DNA of 45,236 nt. It comes from Campylobacteraceae bacterium (GTDB taxonomy: Bacteria; Campylobacterota; Campylobacteria; Campylobacterales; Sulfurovaceae). The stretch covers positions 1 through 45,236 of the forward strand of contig JALWNT010000067.1 of NCBI GenBank assembly GCA_027080995.1. The letters are read 5' to 3'. Shown piece after piece: positions 5,387 to 43,190 of this stretch. The notes below the pieces were generated by a model. It searched no databases, had not been told where the DNA came from, and was given only the letters and a program-made list of their open reading frames with translations. Position 1 is the stretch's first letter; each line of letters begins with the position of its first letter. A program made the position numbers and the translations under genes.

Positions 5387-5558
5387 CGCTCTTTTTCATT
5401 ATATGAGATTTGGCTGTTTGAAACTATTATAGCATAGGCAGCTACGCGGCTTTTCCTCAAAATGCAGGAATAGAAATTGGAGGAATTGAGAATGGATGAT
5501 AGAAAATTTGGTGCATAATATCGCATTACGATGCAATGCCAATACATGTTTGTCGTTT

Positions 5559-5638
5559 CGTCATTCCGGGCTTGATCCGGAATCCAGGGCTACAAATACC
5601 TATGAAACCGTAGATCCTGAATCAAGTTCAGGATGACG
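5559..5638. repeat. Dispersed two-hairpin element, copy A
   Basis: Arm 1 has ATTCCGG and CCGGAAT around a 7-nt loop (5563-5583). Arm 2 has ATCCTGAA and TTCAGGAT around TCAAG (5614-5634). The outer ends are CGTCAT and ATGACG. Copies B (8420-8497, order reversed) and C (13258-13337) share the same two-arm plan, and a related single arm lies at 39828. It fills most of the space between mntA and the 3' end of valS. Confidence 0.8.
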
Positions 5639-5660: not shown

Positions 5661-8294
5661 TTACCCCTGCAAGCTTGTAAGCTCCCCTTTGACCTTCTCC
5701 AGTTTCTGCTCCGCTTCGGCGAGGGCCTGGCGGTTCTGGGCGATGACCTGCTCGGGGGCGTTGGCGACGAATTTTTCGTTGTTCAGCATTCCCGCGAGCT
5801 TCATGATCTCTTTTTCGAGTTTGGCTTTTTGCTTCTCCAACTTGGCGATGATGGGGCCCATGTCGATGTCGGCGGTGGAGATGTAGCTCTCCAGGTGGTC
5901 GCTCACATCCGTGACGGCGGGTTCGGGTTTGTGCTTGACGAACTCCACCGTATCGACCTTGGCCAGTTTTTCGATGAAGGGGCGCATCAGCTCCTCGTCG
6001 ATGGGGGCGCCGAATTTGACGTAGGCTTTTTCGATCCGCTGGTTGGCCTTGTCCACCAGGGTTTTGCAGCGGCGGATCGAGACGATCGCCTCGATGGCCA
6101 GGGCGAAATCCTCCATGATCTTCTCGTCAGGCTTTCCGGCGACGGGGTAGGGGCGGATCATGATCGATTCACTTTCACTCAGATCAGTGCCTCCCAGACG
6201 TTGATAGAGGTACTCGGTCAGGTAGGGCATGAAGGGGTGCAGGAGCTTCATCGACTCCCGGTAGATGCTGCCCAGTTCCGGCACGCTTGCTTTGCTTGCC
6301 TTGCTCAGCTCGATCCCCCAGTCGCAGAACTCTCCCCAAAGGAAGCGGTAGAGTGTCGTGGCCGCGTCGTTGAAGCGGTACTGGTCGATATAGCGGCGGG
6401 TCTCCTCGACGGCCAGATAGAAACGGCTGAGCATGTAGCGCCCCAGGGGCGTTTCGATCCGCTCGGGATCCAGGTCCTCGAAACGCTCGGCGTTCATCAG
6501 GAGGTAGTTGGCGGCATTGTAGAGTTTGTTGGTGAAGTTGCGGCTTAGCTCCAGCTTCTCTTCGCTGAGCTTGATATCCCGTCCCTGGACCGCCAATACC
6601 GCCAGGGTGAAGCGCAGGGCGTCGGCGGAGTATTTGTCGATCATCACCAGAGGGTCGATGACGTTGCCCTTGGATTTGGACATCTTCTCGCCCTTCTCGT
6701 CCTTGACCAGGGCGTGGAGATAGACGTGGGGGAAGGGGAGCTCTCCGGTGAGCTTCTCCCCCATCATCAGCATCCGCGCCACCCAGAAGAATAGGATATC
6801 GAAGCCGGTGATCAGCAGGGAGTTGGGGTAGAACTCCTCCATATCACTCTCGAACCATTTGACATTTTTCAGCGCGTCGCCGTTGCCCCAGCCCAGGGTC
6901 GAAAAGGGCCAGAGTCCCGAGCTGAACCAGGTATCCAGTACGTCGGGATCCTGATGGATGTTGCTGCTGCCGCATTTGGGGCACTCGGTGGGGGTGTCGC
7001 CTTCGAAGGCCCACTGATGGCCGCAGTCGTCACAGTACATCACCGGGATCTGATGTCCCCACCAGAGCTGGCGGCTGATGCACCAGTCCCGCAGGTCTCG
7101 CATCCAGGCGTTGAAGCTGTTGATCCAGTGCTCGGGGAAGAAGCGCACTTCCCCCTCGTTGACCCGGCGGACGGTGTCGGCGGCGAACTCCTTTTTGACG
7201 AACCACTGTTTGCTCACATAGGGTTCGACCACGTTTTTGCAGCGGTAGCAGTGGCCCACCTGGTGGCGGTGTTCCTCGACCTTTTCGAGGAAGCCCTCCT
7301 CTTCGAGTTTTTTGACGACGGGTTCACGGGCCTCCAGCCGCTCCATGCCGGCGAACTCTCCGGCGTACTGGTTGAGGATGCCGTTTTCGTCGAAGACTGT
7401 GATGAAGTCCAGACCGTGGCGCATCCCCACCTCGTAGTCGTTGGGGTCGTGGGCGGGGGTGACTTTGACCACCCCGGTTCCGAACTCCATATCGACGTGC
7501 TCGTCGGCGATGATGGGGATCTCCCGGCCGATGAGGGGCAGCAGGATCGTTTTGCCGATGAGATCCTTGTAGCGCTCGTCGGCGGGGTTGACCATGACGG
7601 CGGTATCGCCGAAGAAGGTCTCGGGGCGGGTGGTAGCCACGACGACGTGGCCGCTGCCGTCGCTCAGGGGATAGCGGATGTAGTAGAGCTTGCCGTCGTG
7701 TTCTTCGTACTCCACCTCGATGTCGCTGAGGGCCCCGTCGTGGGTACACCAGTTGATCATGTAGTTGCCCTGGACGATCCACCCTTCGTCGTACATCCGC
7801 TTGAAGGCGTGTTTGACGGCGTTGGCCAGCCCCTCATCCATGGTGAAGCGCTCCCGGCTCCAAGCGGGGGAGACCCCCAGGCGGCGCAGCTGGGTGGTGA
7901 TGGCGTTGCCGGAGTTCTCTTTCTGCTTCCAGGCCAGCTCCAAGAAAGCTTCGCGGCCGATCTCCTCCTTGGTCTTGCCCTGTTCGAGGAGCTGCTTTTC
8001 GACCACGTTCTGGGTGGCGATGCCGGCATGGTCGGTCCCGGGCTGCCAGAGGGTCTTGTAGCCGTCCATCCGCTTGTAGCGGACGATGATGTCCTGGAGG
8101 GTAAAGGTCAGCGCGTGGCCGATGTGCAGATGTCCCGTGACGTTGGGCGGGGGCATCATGATACAAAAGCGCTTGCCCTCCTGCTGGATCGCTTCGTTGC
8201 CGTCGATCTCGAAATAGCCCCGATCCTCCCAGAGGCGGTAGTAGTCGGCCTCGACGGCTTTGGGGTCGTAGTGGGTCTTTTGGGTTTCGCTCAT
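5661..8294 (-). CDS. valS: Valine--tRNA ligase
   Basis: The 877-residue enzyme charges tRNA-Val in the cytoplasm and removes mischarged threonine. The class I signatures are complete: HIGH at residues 57-60 within GHLHIGHA, and KMSKS near residues 537-541. Also visible are the editing-domain phrase TTRPET, the DWCISRQLWWGHQIP block, paired Cys motifs around CDDCGHQW and CPKCGSS, and a C-terminal coiled coil from about residue 805 (LEKQKAKLEKEI). Length is normal for bacterial ValRS. It is transcribed alone, divergent from hemH across an unusual repeat-filled gap. Confidence 0.98.
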   Translation of the reverse strand: MSETQKTHYDPKAVEADYYRLWEDRGYFEIDGNEAIQQEGKRFCIMMPPPNVTGHLHIGHALTFTLQDIIVRYKRMDGYKTLWQPGTDHAGIATQNVVEKQLLEQGKTKEEIGREAFLELAWKQKENSGNAITTQLRRLGVSPAWSRERFTMDEGLANAVKHAFKRMYDEGWIVQGNYMINWCTHDGALSDIEVEYEEHDGKLYYIRYPLSDGSGHVVVATTRPETFFGDTAVMVNPADERYKDLIGKTILLPLIGREIPIIADEHVDMEFGTGVVKVTPAHDPNDYEVGMRHGLDFITVFDENGILNQYAGEFAGMERLEAREPVVKKLEEEGFLEKVEEHRHQVGHCYRCKNVVEPYVSKQWFVKKEFAADTVRRVNEGEVRFFPEHWINSFNAWMRDLRDWCISRQLWWGHQIPVMYCDDCGHQWAFEGDTPTECPKCGSSNIHQDPDVLDTWFSSGLWPFSTLGWGNGDALKNVKWFESDMEEFYPNSLLITGFDILFFWVARMLMMGEKLTGELPFPHVYLHALVKDEKGEKMSKSKGNVIDPLVMIDKYSADALRFTLAVLAVQGRDIKLSEEKLELSRNFTNKLYNAANYLLMNAERFEDLDPERIETPLGRYMLSRFYLAVEETRRYIDQYRFNDAATTLYRFLWGEFCDWGIELSKASKASVPELGSIYRESMKLLHPFMPYLTEYLYQRLGGTDLSESESIMIRPYPVAGKPDEKIMEDFALAIEAIVSIRRCKTLVDKANQRIEKAYVKFGAPIDEELMRPFIEKLAKVDTVEFVKHKPEPAVTDVSDHLESYISTADIDMGPIIAKLEKQKAKLEKEIMKLAGMLNNEKFVANAPEQVIAQNRQALAEAEQKLEKVKGELTSLQG

Positions 8295-8312
8295 GGATGG
8301 TCCTTTGGACGG

Positions 8313-8375
8313 TTTGCGTGTTGCGTGCTATGTGCTACGTGTTGCGTGTTACGTGCTACGTGTTACGTGTTACGA
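8313..8375. repeat. 7-bp tandem array, G(T/C)T(A/G)CGT x 9
   Basis: Nine head-to-tail 7-bp units follow one another from 8313: TTTGCGT, GTTGCGT, GCTATGT, GCTACGT, GTTGCGT, GTTACGT, GCTACGT, GTTACGT, GTTACGA. The units differ only at two or three positions. The array lies 19 nt upstream of the valS start codon, in its promoter/leader region. Confidence 0.85.
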
Positions 8376-8419
8376 AAAGGTATGACACATCATTGGTTTT
8401 CTCGAAAATTCCCGCTATC

Positions 8420-8497
8420 CGTCATCCTGAACCCGATTCAGGATCCACGCTTACTCAGGCTTTTGAGCCCTGGATTCCGGATCAAGTCCGGAATGAC
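8420..8497. repeat. Dispersed two-hairpin element, copy B (inverted order)
   Basis: This copy begins with the CCTGA-type arm (ATCCTGA/TCAGGAT, from 8424) and ends with the CCGG-type arm (ATTCCGG/CCGGAAT, to about 8493), the reverse of copies A and C. It sits between two opposing 7-bp arrays in the valS-hemH gap. Confidence 0.8.
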
Positions 8498-8506
8498 AAG
8501 ATCGTC

Positions 8507-8553
8507 TCGTAGCACTTAGCACATAACACGTAGCACGTTATACACCACGTAGC
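8507..8553. repeat. 7-bp array in opposite orientation, ACGTA(G/A)C units
   Basis: Units TCGTAGC, ACTTAGC, ACATAAC, ACGTAGC, ACGTTAT, a partial ACACC and ACGTAGC are the reverse complement of the units at 8313-8375. With that array they bracket palindromic copy B. The rest of the 367-nt valS-hemH gap holds nothing else I recognise. Confidence 0.75.
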
Positions 8554-8661
8554 ACAAAATTTCCGCGATTATAGCCAAAAGGACTTTGCCTTTTGATTGG
8601 ATGAGGGGAGAGAGTGGTTTGTGTGCTACTATATCTCTCCAAAGAATCTTCGAGGTGTTTG

Positions 8662-9603
8662 ATGAAAAAAGGTCTCTTGCTGCTCAATATGGGCGGCCCC
8701 AACAATCTCGACGAAGTCGAACTCTTTTTGCGCAATATGTTCGCCGATCCCCGCATCCTGCCGATGAGTGGCTGGATGCGCAAACGGATCGGGTCGATGA
8801 TCGTGCGCAGGCGGCTCGAAGAGGCGCAGGAGAATTACCGCGAGCTGGGGGGCAGGTCGCCCCTGACGCAGATCACATGGTCCCTGGCGGCGAAGGTAGA
8901 GACGCAAAGCGGGGTGCTGGTGCGCCCGGCGATGCGTTATGTGCCGCCTTTTGCCGATCCGGCGCTGCGTGAATTTGCGGAGGAGGGGGTCGAGGAGCTG
9001 GTGCTTTTTCCGATGTATCCGCACTACTCCACGACGACGACGCTCTCTTCGGTGGAGGATGTCGAGGAGCGCTGTGCGGCGATGGGGTATCACCCCAAGA
9101 TCCGGGTCGTCGATCCTTACTACGACGACTACGACTACCTGGCGATTCAGGCAGATCGGATCGCCGAGGCGGCCGAAGGGATCGAAACCCGGGAGTACGA
9201 CCTGATCCTCTCGGCCCACGGTTTGCCGATGAGCATCATCGAAGCGGGAGACCCGTACGAAAAGCAGGTGGAGGCCAACGTCTCGGCGCTCAAGACGATA
9301 TTGAGATGCCGAGGTATTATATTTAAAAATATCAAGCTCGCCTATCAGTCCAAAGTCGGCAACGCCGCCTGGTTGGAGCCCAATCTCAGCGATGTGTTGC
9401 GCCAGCCTGAAAACCTGAAAGTGTTGATTTTCCCTCTGGCTTTTACCGTCGACAACAGCGAAACTCTCTTCGAACTGGACCGGGAGCACCGGGCGATCGC
9501 CGAAAAGATCGGCTACGAAGATTATCGGGTCGCCCGCTGCCCCAACGACGGAGAGGATTTTGCCGCGTTTATCGCCGAAAAGATCGGGAAGGAGAATGCG
9601 TAG
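8662..9603 (+). CDS. hemH: Ferrochelatase
   Basis: The 313-residue enzyme inserts ferrous iron into protoporphyrin IX, the last step of protoheme synthesis. Seen are the N-terminal LLLLNMGGP, the active-site LSAHGLPMSII with its conserved His, AYQSKVGNAAWLEPN, and the C-terminal acidic FAVDNSETLFELD-like block (here FTVDNSETLFELD). The start is ATG at 8662, giving MKKGLLLLNMGG, with GAGGTG just upstream. The last 8 nt overlap the VanZ-like gene. Cytochrome-rich respiration is consistent with the cytochrome c gene elsewhere in the window. Confidence 0.96.
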   Translation: MKKGLLLLNMGGPNNLDEVELFLRNMFADPRILPMSGWMRKRIGSMIVRRRLEEAQENYRELGGRSPLTQITWSLAAKVETQSGVLVRPAMRYVPPFADPALREFAEEGVEELVLFPMYPHYSTTTTLSSVEDVEERCAAMGYHPKIRVVDPYYDDYDYLAIQADRIAEAAEGIETREYDLILSAHGLPMSIIEAGDPYEKQVEANVSALKTILRCRGIIFKNIKLAYQSKVGNAAWLEPNLSDVLRQPENLKVLIFPLAFTVDNSETLFELDREHRAIAEKIGYEDYRVARCPNDGEDFAAFIAEKIGKENA

Positions 9604-13257: not shown

Positions 13258-13337
13258 CGTCATTCCGGACTCGATCCGGAATCCGGGGCCTAGAATGTCT
13301 GTAATGCTCCGGATCCTGAATTGAGTTTAGGATGACG
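13258..13337. repeat. Dispersed two-hairpin element, copy C
   Basis: Arm 1 is ATTCCGG/CCGGAAT (from 13262) and arm 2 is ATCCTGAA/TTTAGGAT with one G-T pair (to about 13333). The outer CGTCAT and ATGACG ends match copy A, in the same orientation. It separates metE from the YigZ-family gene. Confidence 0.8.
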
Positions 13338-41657: not shown

Positions 41658-41906
41658 ATGCTGACCGTCAGACTTTCGCAAGAGATGGAGCGAAAAATCG
41701 ACGAAGAAGCCCGGTATCGTCGCAGCACGAAAACGGAAGTGGTCAAAGAGGCATTGGACCTTTATTTCCGCCGCAAAGAGCAGCAATTTTCGCCCTTTGA
41801 ACTGGGAGAGGATCTGTTCGGACGCTACGGAAGCGGCCGGAAAGACAACTCCACCCGCTACAAAGAGCGGCTCAAAGAGAAAATCGCCGGGAAAACGGGC
41901 CGATGA
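41658..41906 (+). CDS. vapB: Ribbon-helix-helix antitoxin (VapB-like)
   Basis: The 82-residue protein has a short beta strand (MLTVRLSQEM) followed by two helices (ERKIDEEARYRRST, TEVVKEALDLYF), the ribbon-helix-helix DNA-binding form. The charged C-terminal half (ELGEDLFGRYGSG) would wrap the toxin. It overlaps the PIN toxin gene as ATGA, and direct-repeat operators lie at its promoter, so autorepression with the toxin is likely. Confidence 0.88.
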   Translation: MLTVRLSQEMERKIDEEARYRRSTKTEVVKEALDLYFRRKEQQFSPFELGEDLFGRYGSGRKDNSTRYKERLKEKIAGKTGR

Positions 41907-42316
41907 GGCGTGTGCTCATCGACAGCGGGCCGTTGATCGCCCTTTTTGACCGCAGCGACCGCTACCACGAAAGGGTTCTGGGTTTTCTGAGAAATTTCGA
42001 GGGTGAGCTTGTGAGCAGTTGGCCGGTGCTGACCGAAGTGAGCCATATGCTCGATTTTAACTTGCAGGTGCAAGTCGACTTTTTGGAATGGGTCCATCGG
42101 GGGGCGATCGAACTGCCGGAAATCGGCCGGGATGAATTGGGCGGCTTGATCGAAATGATGCGCCATTACACCGACGTCCCGATGGATCTCGCCGATGCGA
42201 CACTGGTCTATTTGGCCCATCGGGAGAAAATCGAAGAGATTATCAGCATCGACAGCGATTTTTCCATTTACCGAACTCTCAAAAAGCGATTTGTTCGCAA
42301 CATACTTCCCCACTGA
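41903..42316 (+). CDS. vapC: PIN-domain ribonuclease toxin (VapC-like)
   Basis: The 137-residue protein has the PIN acidic residues: D7 in LIDSGP, the Glu of LTEVSHML near 45, and Asp residues in DLADATL and SIDSDF. VapC toxins cut tRNA or rRNA. The family and the 4-nt overlap with the antitoxin gene are clear; the RNA target cannot be read. lipA begins 10 nt downstream, so the toxin gene may carry lipA transcription. Confidence 0.9.
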   Translation: MRRVLIDSGPLIALFDRSDRYHERVLGFLRNFEGELVSSWPVLTEVSHMLDFNLQVQVDFLEWVHRGAIELPEIGRDELGGLIEMMRHYTDVPMDLADATLVYLAHREKIEEIISIDSDFSIYRTLKKRFVRNILPH

Positions 42317-42319
42317 CGA

Positions 42320-42339
42320 GTGACCAATGACCAATGACC
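42320..42339. repeat. 7-bp direct repeat over the lipA start
   Basis: GTGACCA, ATGACCA and ATGACCA follow in tandem, starting at 42320, 42327 and 42334. Each contains a possible start codon in a different frame; only the one at 42327 is in frame with lipA. Confidence 0.7.
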
Positions 42340-43190
42340 AATTCTATAAACCCCGCGTCAAAGCCCCCGATCCGGCTCTGATCGAGCGGACCGATACCGT
42401 GCTGCACCGCCACCGTCTCACCACCGTTTGCGAGGAGAGCGCCTGCCCGAACCGGGCGGAGTGCTACGCCAGGGGGACGGCGACCTTTATGATCCTGGGG
42501 GATACCTGCACCCGGGCTTGCCGTTTCTGCAACGTCAAGACGGGTCGCGGGGCGCCGCCCGATCCCGAGGAGCCGGGGCGGATAGCCGCGGCGGTGCGGG
42601 ACCTGGGGCTGCGCTACGTCGTCGTCACCTCCGTGGACCGGGACGATCTGGGCGATTACGGCTCCGGGCACTTCGCCGCGGTGGTGGAGGCGATCCGCCG
42701 AGAGGCGCCGGGGGTGAAGATCGAGCTGCTTACTCCCGATTTCCGGGGTGAGCGCGAAGCGCTCGATACCGTCATCGCCGCGGCACCCGACAAACTGGCC
42801 CACAACGAAGAGACGGTGCGGCGTCTCTCGCCCACGGTGCGGCCCCAGAGCGACTACGACCGCTCTCTCGCGGTGTTGCGCTACTACGCCGAGCGCTTCG
42901 ACGGCCCGGTCAAAAGCTCGCTGATGGCGGGGCTGGGGGAGAGTGAGGAGGAGTTGGTCCGCACGATGGGCGATCTCTATGCGGCGGGGGTGCGGGAGTT
43001 GACCCTCGGGCAGTATCTGCAACCGACCCCCCGGCACGCTCCCGTCGTGCGCTACCATCCGCCGGAGTTCTTCGACCGGATGAAAACGGCCGCCCTGGAG
43101 CTGGGCTTCGAGGCCGTCGCTTCCGGGGTTCTGGTGCGCAGCTCCTACTACGCCGAGCGCCTCGGCACTCCATCGGGCGTAAAAAAATAA
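42327..43190 (+). CDS. lipA: Lipoyl synthase
   Basis: The 287-residue radical-SAM enzyme inserts two sulfurs into protein-bound octanoate to make lipoyl groups. Both clusters are visible: the auxiliary cluster motif in CEESACPNRAEC, and the radical-SAM CTRACRFC. The C-terminal RSSYYAE with its conserved serine is present. Length is normal. The start ATG lies in a 7-bp repeat and lacks a clear ribosome site, which suggests coupling to vapC translation just upstream. Confidence 0.96.
   Translation: MTNDQFYKPRVKAPDPALIERTDTVLHRHRLTTVCEESACPNRAECYARGTATFMILGDTCTRACRFCNVKTGRGAPPDPEEPGRIAAAVRDLGLRYVVVTSVDRDDLGDYGSGHFAAVVEAIRREAPGVKIELLTPDFRGEREALDTVIAAAPDKLAHNEETVRRLSPTVRPQSDYDRSLAVLRYYAERFDGPVKSSLMAGLGESEEELVRTMGDLYAAGVRELTLGQYLQPTPRHAPVVRYHPPEFFDRMKTAALELGFEAVASGVLVRSSYYAERLGTPSGVKK

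Follow-up and report, generated by a model that had tools for sequence, protein, structure and literature searches.

The window, that is, the whole stretch of DNA that was analyzed, spans 45,236 nucleotides (positions 1 to 45,236 of contig JALWNT010000067.1, assembly GCA_027080995.1) from a Campylobacteraceae bacterium. Upstream of its valS gene lies a block in which two tandem arrays of a 7-nt word face each other across a short interior (Table 1). The left array consists, in order, of the units TTTGCGT, GTTGCGT, GCTATGT, GCTACGT, GTTGCGT, GTTACGT, GCTACGT, GTTACGT, and GTTACGA, while the right array holds five clean reverse-complement units and one degenerate stretch. An earlier note on this DNA had counted nine units opposite about six reverse-complement ones, with a copy of a palindrome between them, and that description was borne out. 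The best pairing of the two arms extends over 31 nt with 84% complementarity. Two other copies of the palindromic element occur in the window, both on the minus strand (5560-5637 and 13259-13336).

Table 1. Features of the valS leader region (window coordinates)
Feature	Position	Strand	Remarks
valS (valyl-tRNA synthetase)	5661..8294	-	5' leader appears to hold the element; named from sequence
Left heptamer array	8313..8375	+	nine GTGYTRC-type 7-nt units
Interior, without an ORF for IVP	8376..8506		131 nt
REP-like double hairpin, inside the interior	8421..8497	+	first half: 34 copies genome-wide
Right heptamer array	8507..8556	-	about six units, reverse complement of left array
Putative valS -10 box, TATAAT on the minus strand	8568..8573	-	conserved over ten congeners; inferred promoter

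The repeat is not confined to this locus. A two-unit pattern allowing up to three mismatches matched the window 14 times, versus 5.5 expected (100 shuffles, maximum 13), and the exact two-unit pattern GTGYTAHGTGYTAH matched the 1.97-Mb genome 76 times, versus 0 for a reversed control. A chance origin was ruled out by the shuffles, the reversed-pattern control, and a block-shuffled control that contained zero runs. The earlier note had proposed searching the genome for the 7-mer arrays, and doing so uncovered about 25 dispersed sites at unrelated genes. Six of them are opposed pairs, located on C10, C60, C63, C67 (the window), and, twice, C71; the pair on C60 (L033/L049) carries the window's motif and brackets an intact IVP ORF.

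The double hairpin in the interior resembles REP/BIME-type palindromes, and a REP-like hairpin also lies within the paired arrays of C63 and of three orthologous valS sites. Nevertheless, most REP copies are found outside heptamer arrays and most arrays are without REP, so the palindrome was set aside as the core of the finding and is treated as a separate repeat family that shares the site. Beside the palindrome copy at 5560-5637, downstream of valS, is a degenerate G/A/T-rich repeat, GGAATTGAGAATGGA (window 5459-5507), which is possibly a decayed array.

The valS DNA is conserved enough for leaders to be compared directly across ten congeners. The whole block, arrays and palindrome together, occupies the same place at valS in four of them (G000, G238, G404, and G398) and is missing in the other six (G058, G400, G131, G399, G003, and G403). 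Comparison of copy number, which the earlier note had also proposed, revealed that both the number and the order of units differ between the occupied species. The motif GCGATTATA(T/G)C, which corresponds to the valS TATAAT -10 box on the minus strand, is retained outside the block in occupied and empty species alike, and the Shine-Dalgarno-like AAGGA of valS lies on the opposite side of the block. Because this putative -10 box is kept outside the block and the start codon lies on its other side, the block is best read as an insertion in the valS 5' leader, between the two, and its conservation suggests that it should be transcribed as part of that leader. The arrays are therefore neither unique to one place, nor invariant, nor lacking in relatives: they recur at dispersed sites and persist in three other species with varying units. 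At C71:2452-2544 there is another gene-less GTGYTAC site, which G398, G238, G401, and G397 retain; G058 has a gene-less ACTAGTA pair in its place, and G400 and G131 have nothing there.

These comparisons did not uphold the proposal that the block forms a promoter region shared by valS and hemH. The gene on the far side of the block varies among the occupied species that were read, with hemH there only in this genome, and neither arrays nor valS were found upstream of hemH in congeners. The proposed folding potential of the imperfect inverted repeat, on the other hand, agrees with RNA structure prediction: the window block has a minimum free energy of -100.9 (z = -6.5), and the valS leader is predicted to fold arm against arm in all four orthologs (z = -5.9 to -7.5), despite their differing units. 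Rfam covariance models gave no match at 8200-8700 up to E = 1, and a known RNA family, such as a riboswitch or T-box leader, was thus rejected as a candidate. The sole Rfam match in the window, just over the gathering score, is a c-di-GMP-I-GGC riboswitch aptamer (RF03167) at 2008-2084 on the minus strand.

One reading of the locus is that the block is a cis-regulatory element, acting on valS (and hemH) either through binding sites that are occupied cooperatively or as a controlling leader RNA. Its location in the valS 5' leader, its retention in four species, and its strong predicted folding would all fit. Yet, six congeners with an intact -10 box lack the block, hemH is not a conserved neighbor, same-motif arrays are scattered among unrelated genes, and no Rfam model matches. 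We consider cis-regulation very improbable as an account of what the block is, and its identity as an insertion element is better supported than the cooperative protein-binding site that had been envisaged, although the block could have gained an effect on valS after insertion.

The C60 pair connects the window's motif to a protein family. A family search identified six genes for the 23S rRNA "intervening-sequence" protein (IVP, or S23) in this genome (PF05635, 23S_rRNA_IVP; TIGR02436), and all six lie between opposed arrays of 7- or 8-nt units, with a different motif for every gene (GTGYTAC, TCGTTTG, TTGGTGTA, GGTGAAT, TTTTGGA, and GTTGGAT). This gene-bearing form, which is about 400 to 500 bp long, consists of an array, a gene for an IVP/S23 four-helix-bundle protein, and an inverted array. 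Across the phylum, the family is present in 50 of 397 genomes, at 0 to 9 copies per genome. In about 95 loci from this set, with 97 IVP genes, the two 150-nt flanks of the conserved domain were compared: the upstream one was aligned without gaps to the reverse complement of the downstream one, and the best match was scored. With a threshold of at least 13, which was chosen on this set, paired arrays flank 65 of the 97 IVP genes; the threshold was reached by 3.9% of mismatched flank pairs and by 0 of 68 control genes from the same loci. A tandem period of 7 scored best for 85 of the 97, while no period was preferred among controls.

The threshold was left unchanged for a second set of 80 named loci, drawn from Bacteroidota, Bacillota, Desulfobacterota, Pseudomonadota, Chloroflexota, Planctomycetota, Nitrospirota, Patescibacteria, and others. 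Here, 60 of 88 IVP genes scored at least 13, compared with 1 of 66 controls, and a period of 7 was best in 74 of the 88. About a third of IVP genes thus fall below the paired-array threshold. In viral contigs from IMG/VR, nearly all of 17 inspected IVP loci display the bracketing by eye; one tblastn query for IVP in named phages returned no match. Taken together, these sets show that inverted arrays, with motifs specific to each element, surround IVP genes in many phyla.

Could such arrays simply grow in place by replication slippage and face each other by chance, without being mobile? Species differ in unit number, and there are many solo arrays and many motifs; moreover, literature cited by PMC4679880 has invoked slippage for heptanucleotide repeats. 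However, matched inverted pairs surround one gene family at frequencies far above controls, whereas mismatched pairs rarely match, and the absence of whole blocks at empty sites already strains such an account. We therefore regard slippage as highly unlikely.

The motif and the protein are also related to one another. Pairs of IVP proteins that are at least 90% identical have identical motifs in three of three cases, while the proportion is 25% at 70 to 90% identity and 2% at 50 to 70%. Because motif identity tracks protein identity, motif and protein appear to travel together, with the motif changing fast. The site after trpB (named from sequence) was followed through 13 congeners and revealed three motifs accompanied by IVP, one gene-less pair, and two empty cases. 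The ends are GTGYTAC in G000, GTCGCAA in G238 and G058, and ACTAGTA in G404, G398, and G401, all with IVP; a gene-less GTGGGTA pair is present in G397 and G402, and nothing is there in G131 and G399. The arms of locus L171, from a Campylobacteraceae MAG, have the same sequence as those of the congener locus L072.

Further comparisons of occupied and empty sites come from cyanobacteria. In a Nostoc plasmid operon of three genes, A-B-C, the element is located at the A|B junction in three plasmids, at B|C in one, and at neither in four; pNsp_c and pC052_A are nearly identical in the sequences flanking the B|C junction. Picosynechococcus PCC 7003 has an element between cas10 and cmr3, where PCC 7002 has none. 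A further comparison, of Calothrix with Tolypothrix, Aulosira, and Nostoc carneum, agrees, and at another site, occupied in Aulosira relative to Tolypothrix and Calothrix, the insertion cuts the C terminus of the upstream ORF. Among related plasmids and species, such elements thus occupy a precise site in some and are missing from it in others, and the occupied and empty plasmid sites in cyanobacteria lead us to conclude that they are mobile. Exact flank matching found no empty sites in IMG/VR viral contigs. Two of those contigs, L259 and L261, share IVP and the downstream flank but have different upstream flanks joined at the left array, a difference that possibly reflects recombination at an array. 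On the Nostoc plasmid pNPM1 (L287), the IVP ORF is interrupted by a second, unrelated insertion that has heptamer-like ends.

Mobility of this kind might suggest a MITE derived from an ordinary DNA transposon, in which an unlinked transposase acts on terminal inverted repeats that are rich in heptamers. Inverted ends, dispersed copies, and empty sites are all in keeping with one, and several plasmid elements appear, by eye at their junctions, to begin and end with TA. The ends, however, are not a fixed terminal repeat but tandem arrays whose motif varies freely; those gene-bearing elements that were examined, including the one with the window's motif, carry IVP and no transposase; and no clean case of target-site duplication was established at the junctions. 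A MITE is, in our judgment, unlikely.

Alternatively, IVP could be a host gene under selection, with the arrays acting as its processing or autoregulatory signals and with recombination between arrays giving the appearance of mobility. At the trpB site, IVP is under purifying selection and strong constraint (dN/dS, 0.02 to 0.07); 142 of 149 IVP genes point in the same direction as the gene upstream of them, compared with a 78% baseline for neighboring ORFs; and orthologous sites keep the element while its motifs change. Against this idea are the different positions within one plasmid operon, the empty sites, the scattered distribution of copies (0 to 9 per genome), and insertion into 23S rRNA. 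Of the alternatives weighed, this is the least improbable one, but we still doubt it.

How, then, should the window block be classified? As in the IVP elements, opposed arrays of one approximately 7-nt motif lie within about 0.6 kb, the motif recurs on both sides of an IVP gene on C60, and the block is polymorphic for presence at a defined site (four species versus six). It does not contain an IVP gene, and neither an IVP ORF nor a remnant of one was found in its 131-nt interior. For this reason, we class the block only as a relative that lacks the gene and behaves like the ends of such an element, and its membership rests on motif, layout, and insertion behavior. With that provision, we think it probable that the block belongs, as a member without a gene, to a family of small mobile elements that end on both sides in tandem arrays of a 7-nt word, facing each other.

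Gene-less arrays are common in this genome, and many of them are solo, with diverse motifs. In a census of 400-kb genome samples, 49 arrays of period 7 were counted here, versus 12 of period 8 and a handful of other periods, and none were found after block shuffling of the sample. The number of gene-less arrays that fit a given motif averages 5.2 for motifs of resident IVP genes, 0.75 for those of other genera's IVP genes, and 0.4 for random C-poor motifs (P = 5e-5). The association is significant only in this genome, there being a weak trend in G225 and G258 (P = 0.14 and 0.31). Likewise, among just five genomes, period-7 arrays per 400 kb numbered 49, 21, and 40 with IVP versus 9 and 0 without it.

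The closest known relative is the 23S rRNA IVS. In Coxiella burnetii, direct heptameric repeats (GACAGAT) lie upstream of an S23p ORF within an IVS that has terminal inverted repeats, and the origin and spread of 23S rRNA IVSs have been called unclear (PMC4990558). Like the IVP elements described here, a 23S rRNA IVS carries an S23/IVP ORF between inverted repeats at its two ends, which pair into a long stem in the RNA. The window copy shares the inverted repeats and, in predicted folds, the long stem; unlike an IVS, it has no ORF and is located in an mRNA leader (that of valS) instead of a 23S rRNA helix. Paired opposed arrays as a general property, element-specific motifs, and spread through operons go beyond the IVS description (PMC4990558). 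In CPR bacteria, IVP ORFs (23S_rRNA_IVP) are distributed over several 16S and 23S insertion sites, which suggests mobility (PMC11270868); that work concerns rRNA only, and its main text does not mention tandem, inverted, or heptamer repeats.

Intergenic heptamers have a literature of their own. The TAACTGA repeats of Beggiatoaceae and cyanobacteria are short intergenic tandem heptamers that are dispersed and phylogenetically scattered, and a mobile element has been considered for them (PMC4679880). The window arrays match STRR and other heptanucleotide repeats in being intergenic tandem heptamers at multiple dispersed sites; however, the TAACTGA repeats were reported as almost all direct, unlike the paired arrays here, and without mention of S23/IVP (PMC4679880). 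Finally, Avd of diversity-generating retroelements belongs to the same four-helix-bundle superfamily, and one IVP of this genome gave a weak match to NF033474, but the layout of a diversity-generating retroelement was not seen. A general IVP-array rule was not found in the literature searched, which covered few subscription journals and no bioRxiv preprints; provisionally, then, the paired-array elements are apparently an undescribed type of mobile DNA.

We propose the following scheme. The arrays would be the recognized ends of the element, and IVP protein may bind them; its solved relatives, 2GSC and 2RLD, are uncharacterized proteins whose entries each contain five chains. In IVP elements, C is nearly absent (4.7%) from the strand of the 5' arm, which disfavors pairing inside one arm. 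By analogy with the 23S rRNA IVS (PMC4990558), transcripts may form a long stem that is cut by RNase III-type processing, and such processing would allow insertions in operons, leaders, and rRNA to be tolerated. Copies without a gene would be derivatives, or relatives mobilized in trans. At the loci examined, the element was not linked to any transposase, reverse transcriptase, or recombinase, and the host may supply the enzyme responsible for moving the DNA or RNA.

More broadly, we see about an even chance that these elements constitute a widespread mobile class in many phyla, with ends built from opposed tandem arrays of an approximately 7-nt word that is interchangeable, an IVP/S23 gene without a recognized catalytic domain as their sole gene, and a mode of movement that is probably host assisted and possibly RNA linked. 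Such a class would be the source of 23S rRNA IVSs and of much intergenic heptamer repetition. In G023, an IVP gene with inverted heptamer arms lies inside 23S rRNA (L139), which suggests that the classical IVS is one destination of a broader family found also in operons, mRNA leaders, plasmids, and viral contigs. Under the rule, scattered intergenic heptamer repeats gain a source that can be tested, and an abundant protein family of little-understood function gains a candidate partner, the arrays. Since motifs are element specific and empty sites exist, binding, processing, and mobility are directly testable in cyanobacteria.

Several further arrays were observed. On contigs C67 and C126 of G400, there are long, regular GTGTTAC arrays with matches spaced 21 nt apart, apparently longer than those elsewhere in the genus. 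Locus L323 (C101, 3610-4128) contains several heptamer arrays in a mosaic inside an outer inverted pair, AATGAGG/CCTCGTT, and looks as if elements had inserted into one another. In the window itself, a solo ATGACCA array (42315-42342) is situated between an ORF for a PIN-type toxin-like protein (41903-42316) and a lipA-like ORF. By eye, the PIN-type protein and the short ribbon-helix-helix-antitoxin-like ORF before it form a likely toxin-antitoxin pair (41659-42316). The ATGACCA array supplies the ATG (42327) of the lipA-like ORF together with the codons for the first residues, MTNDQF.
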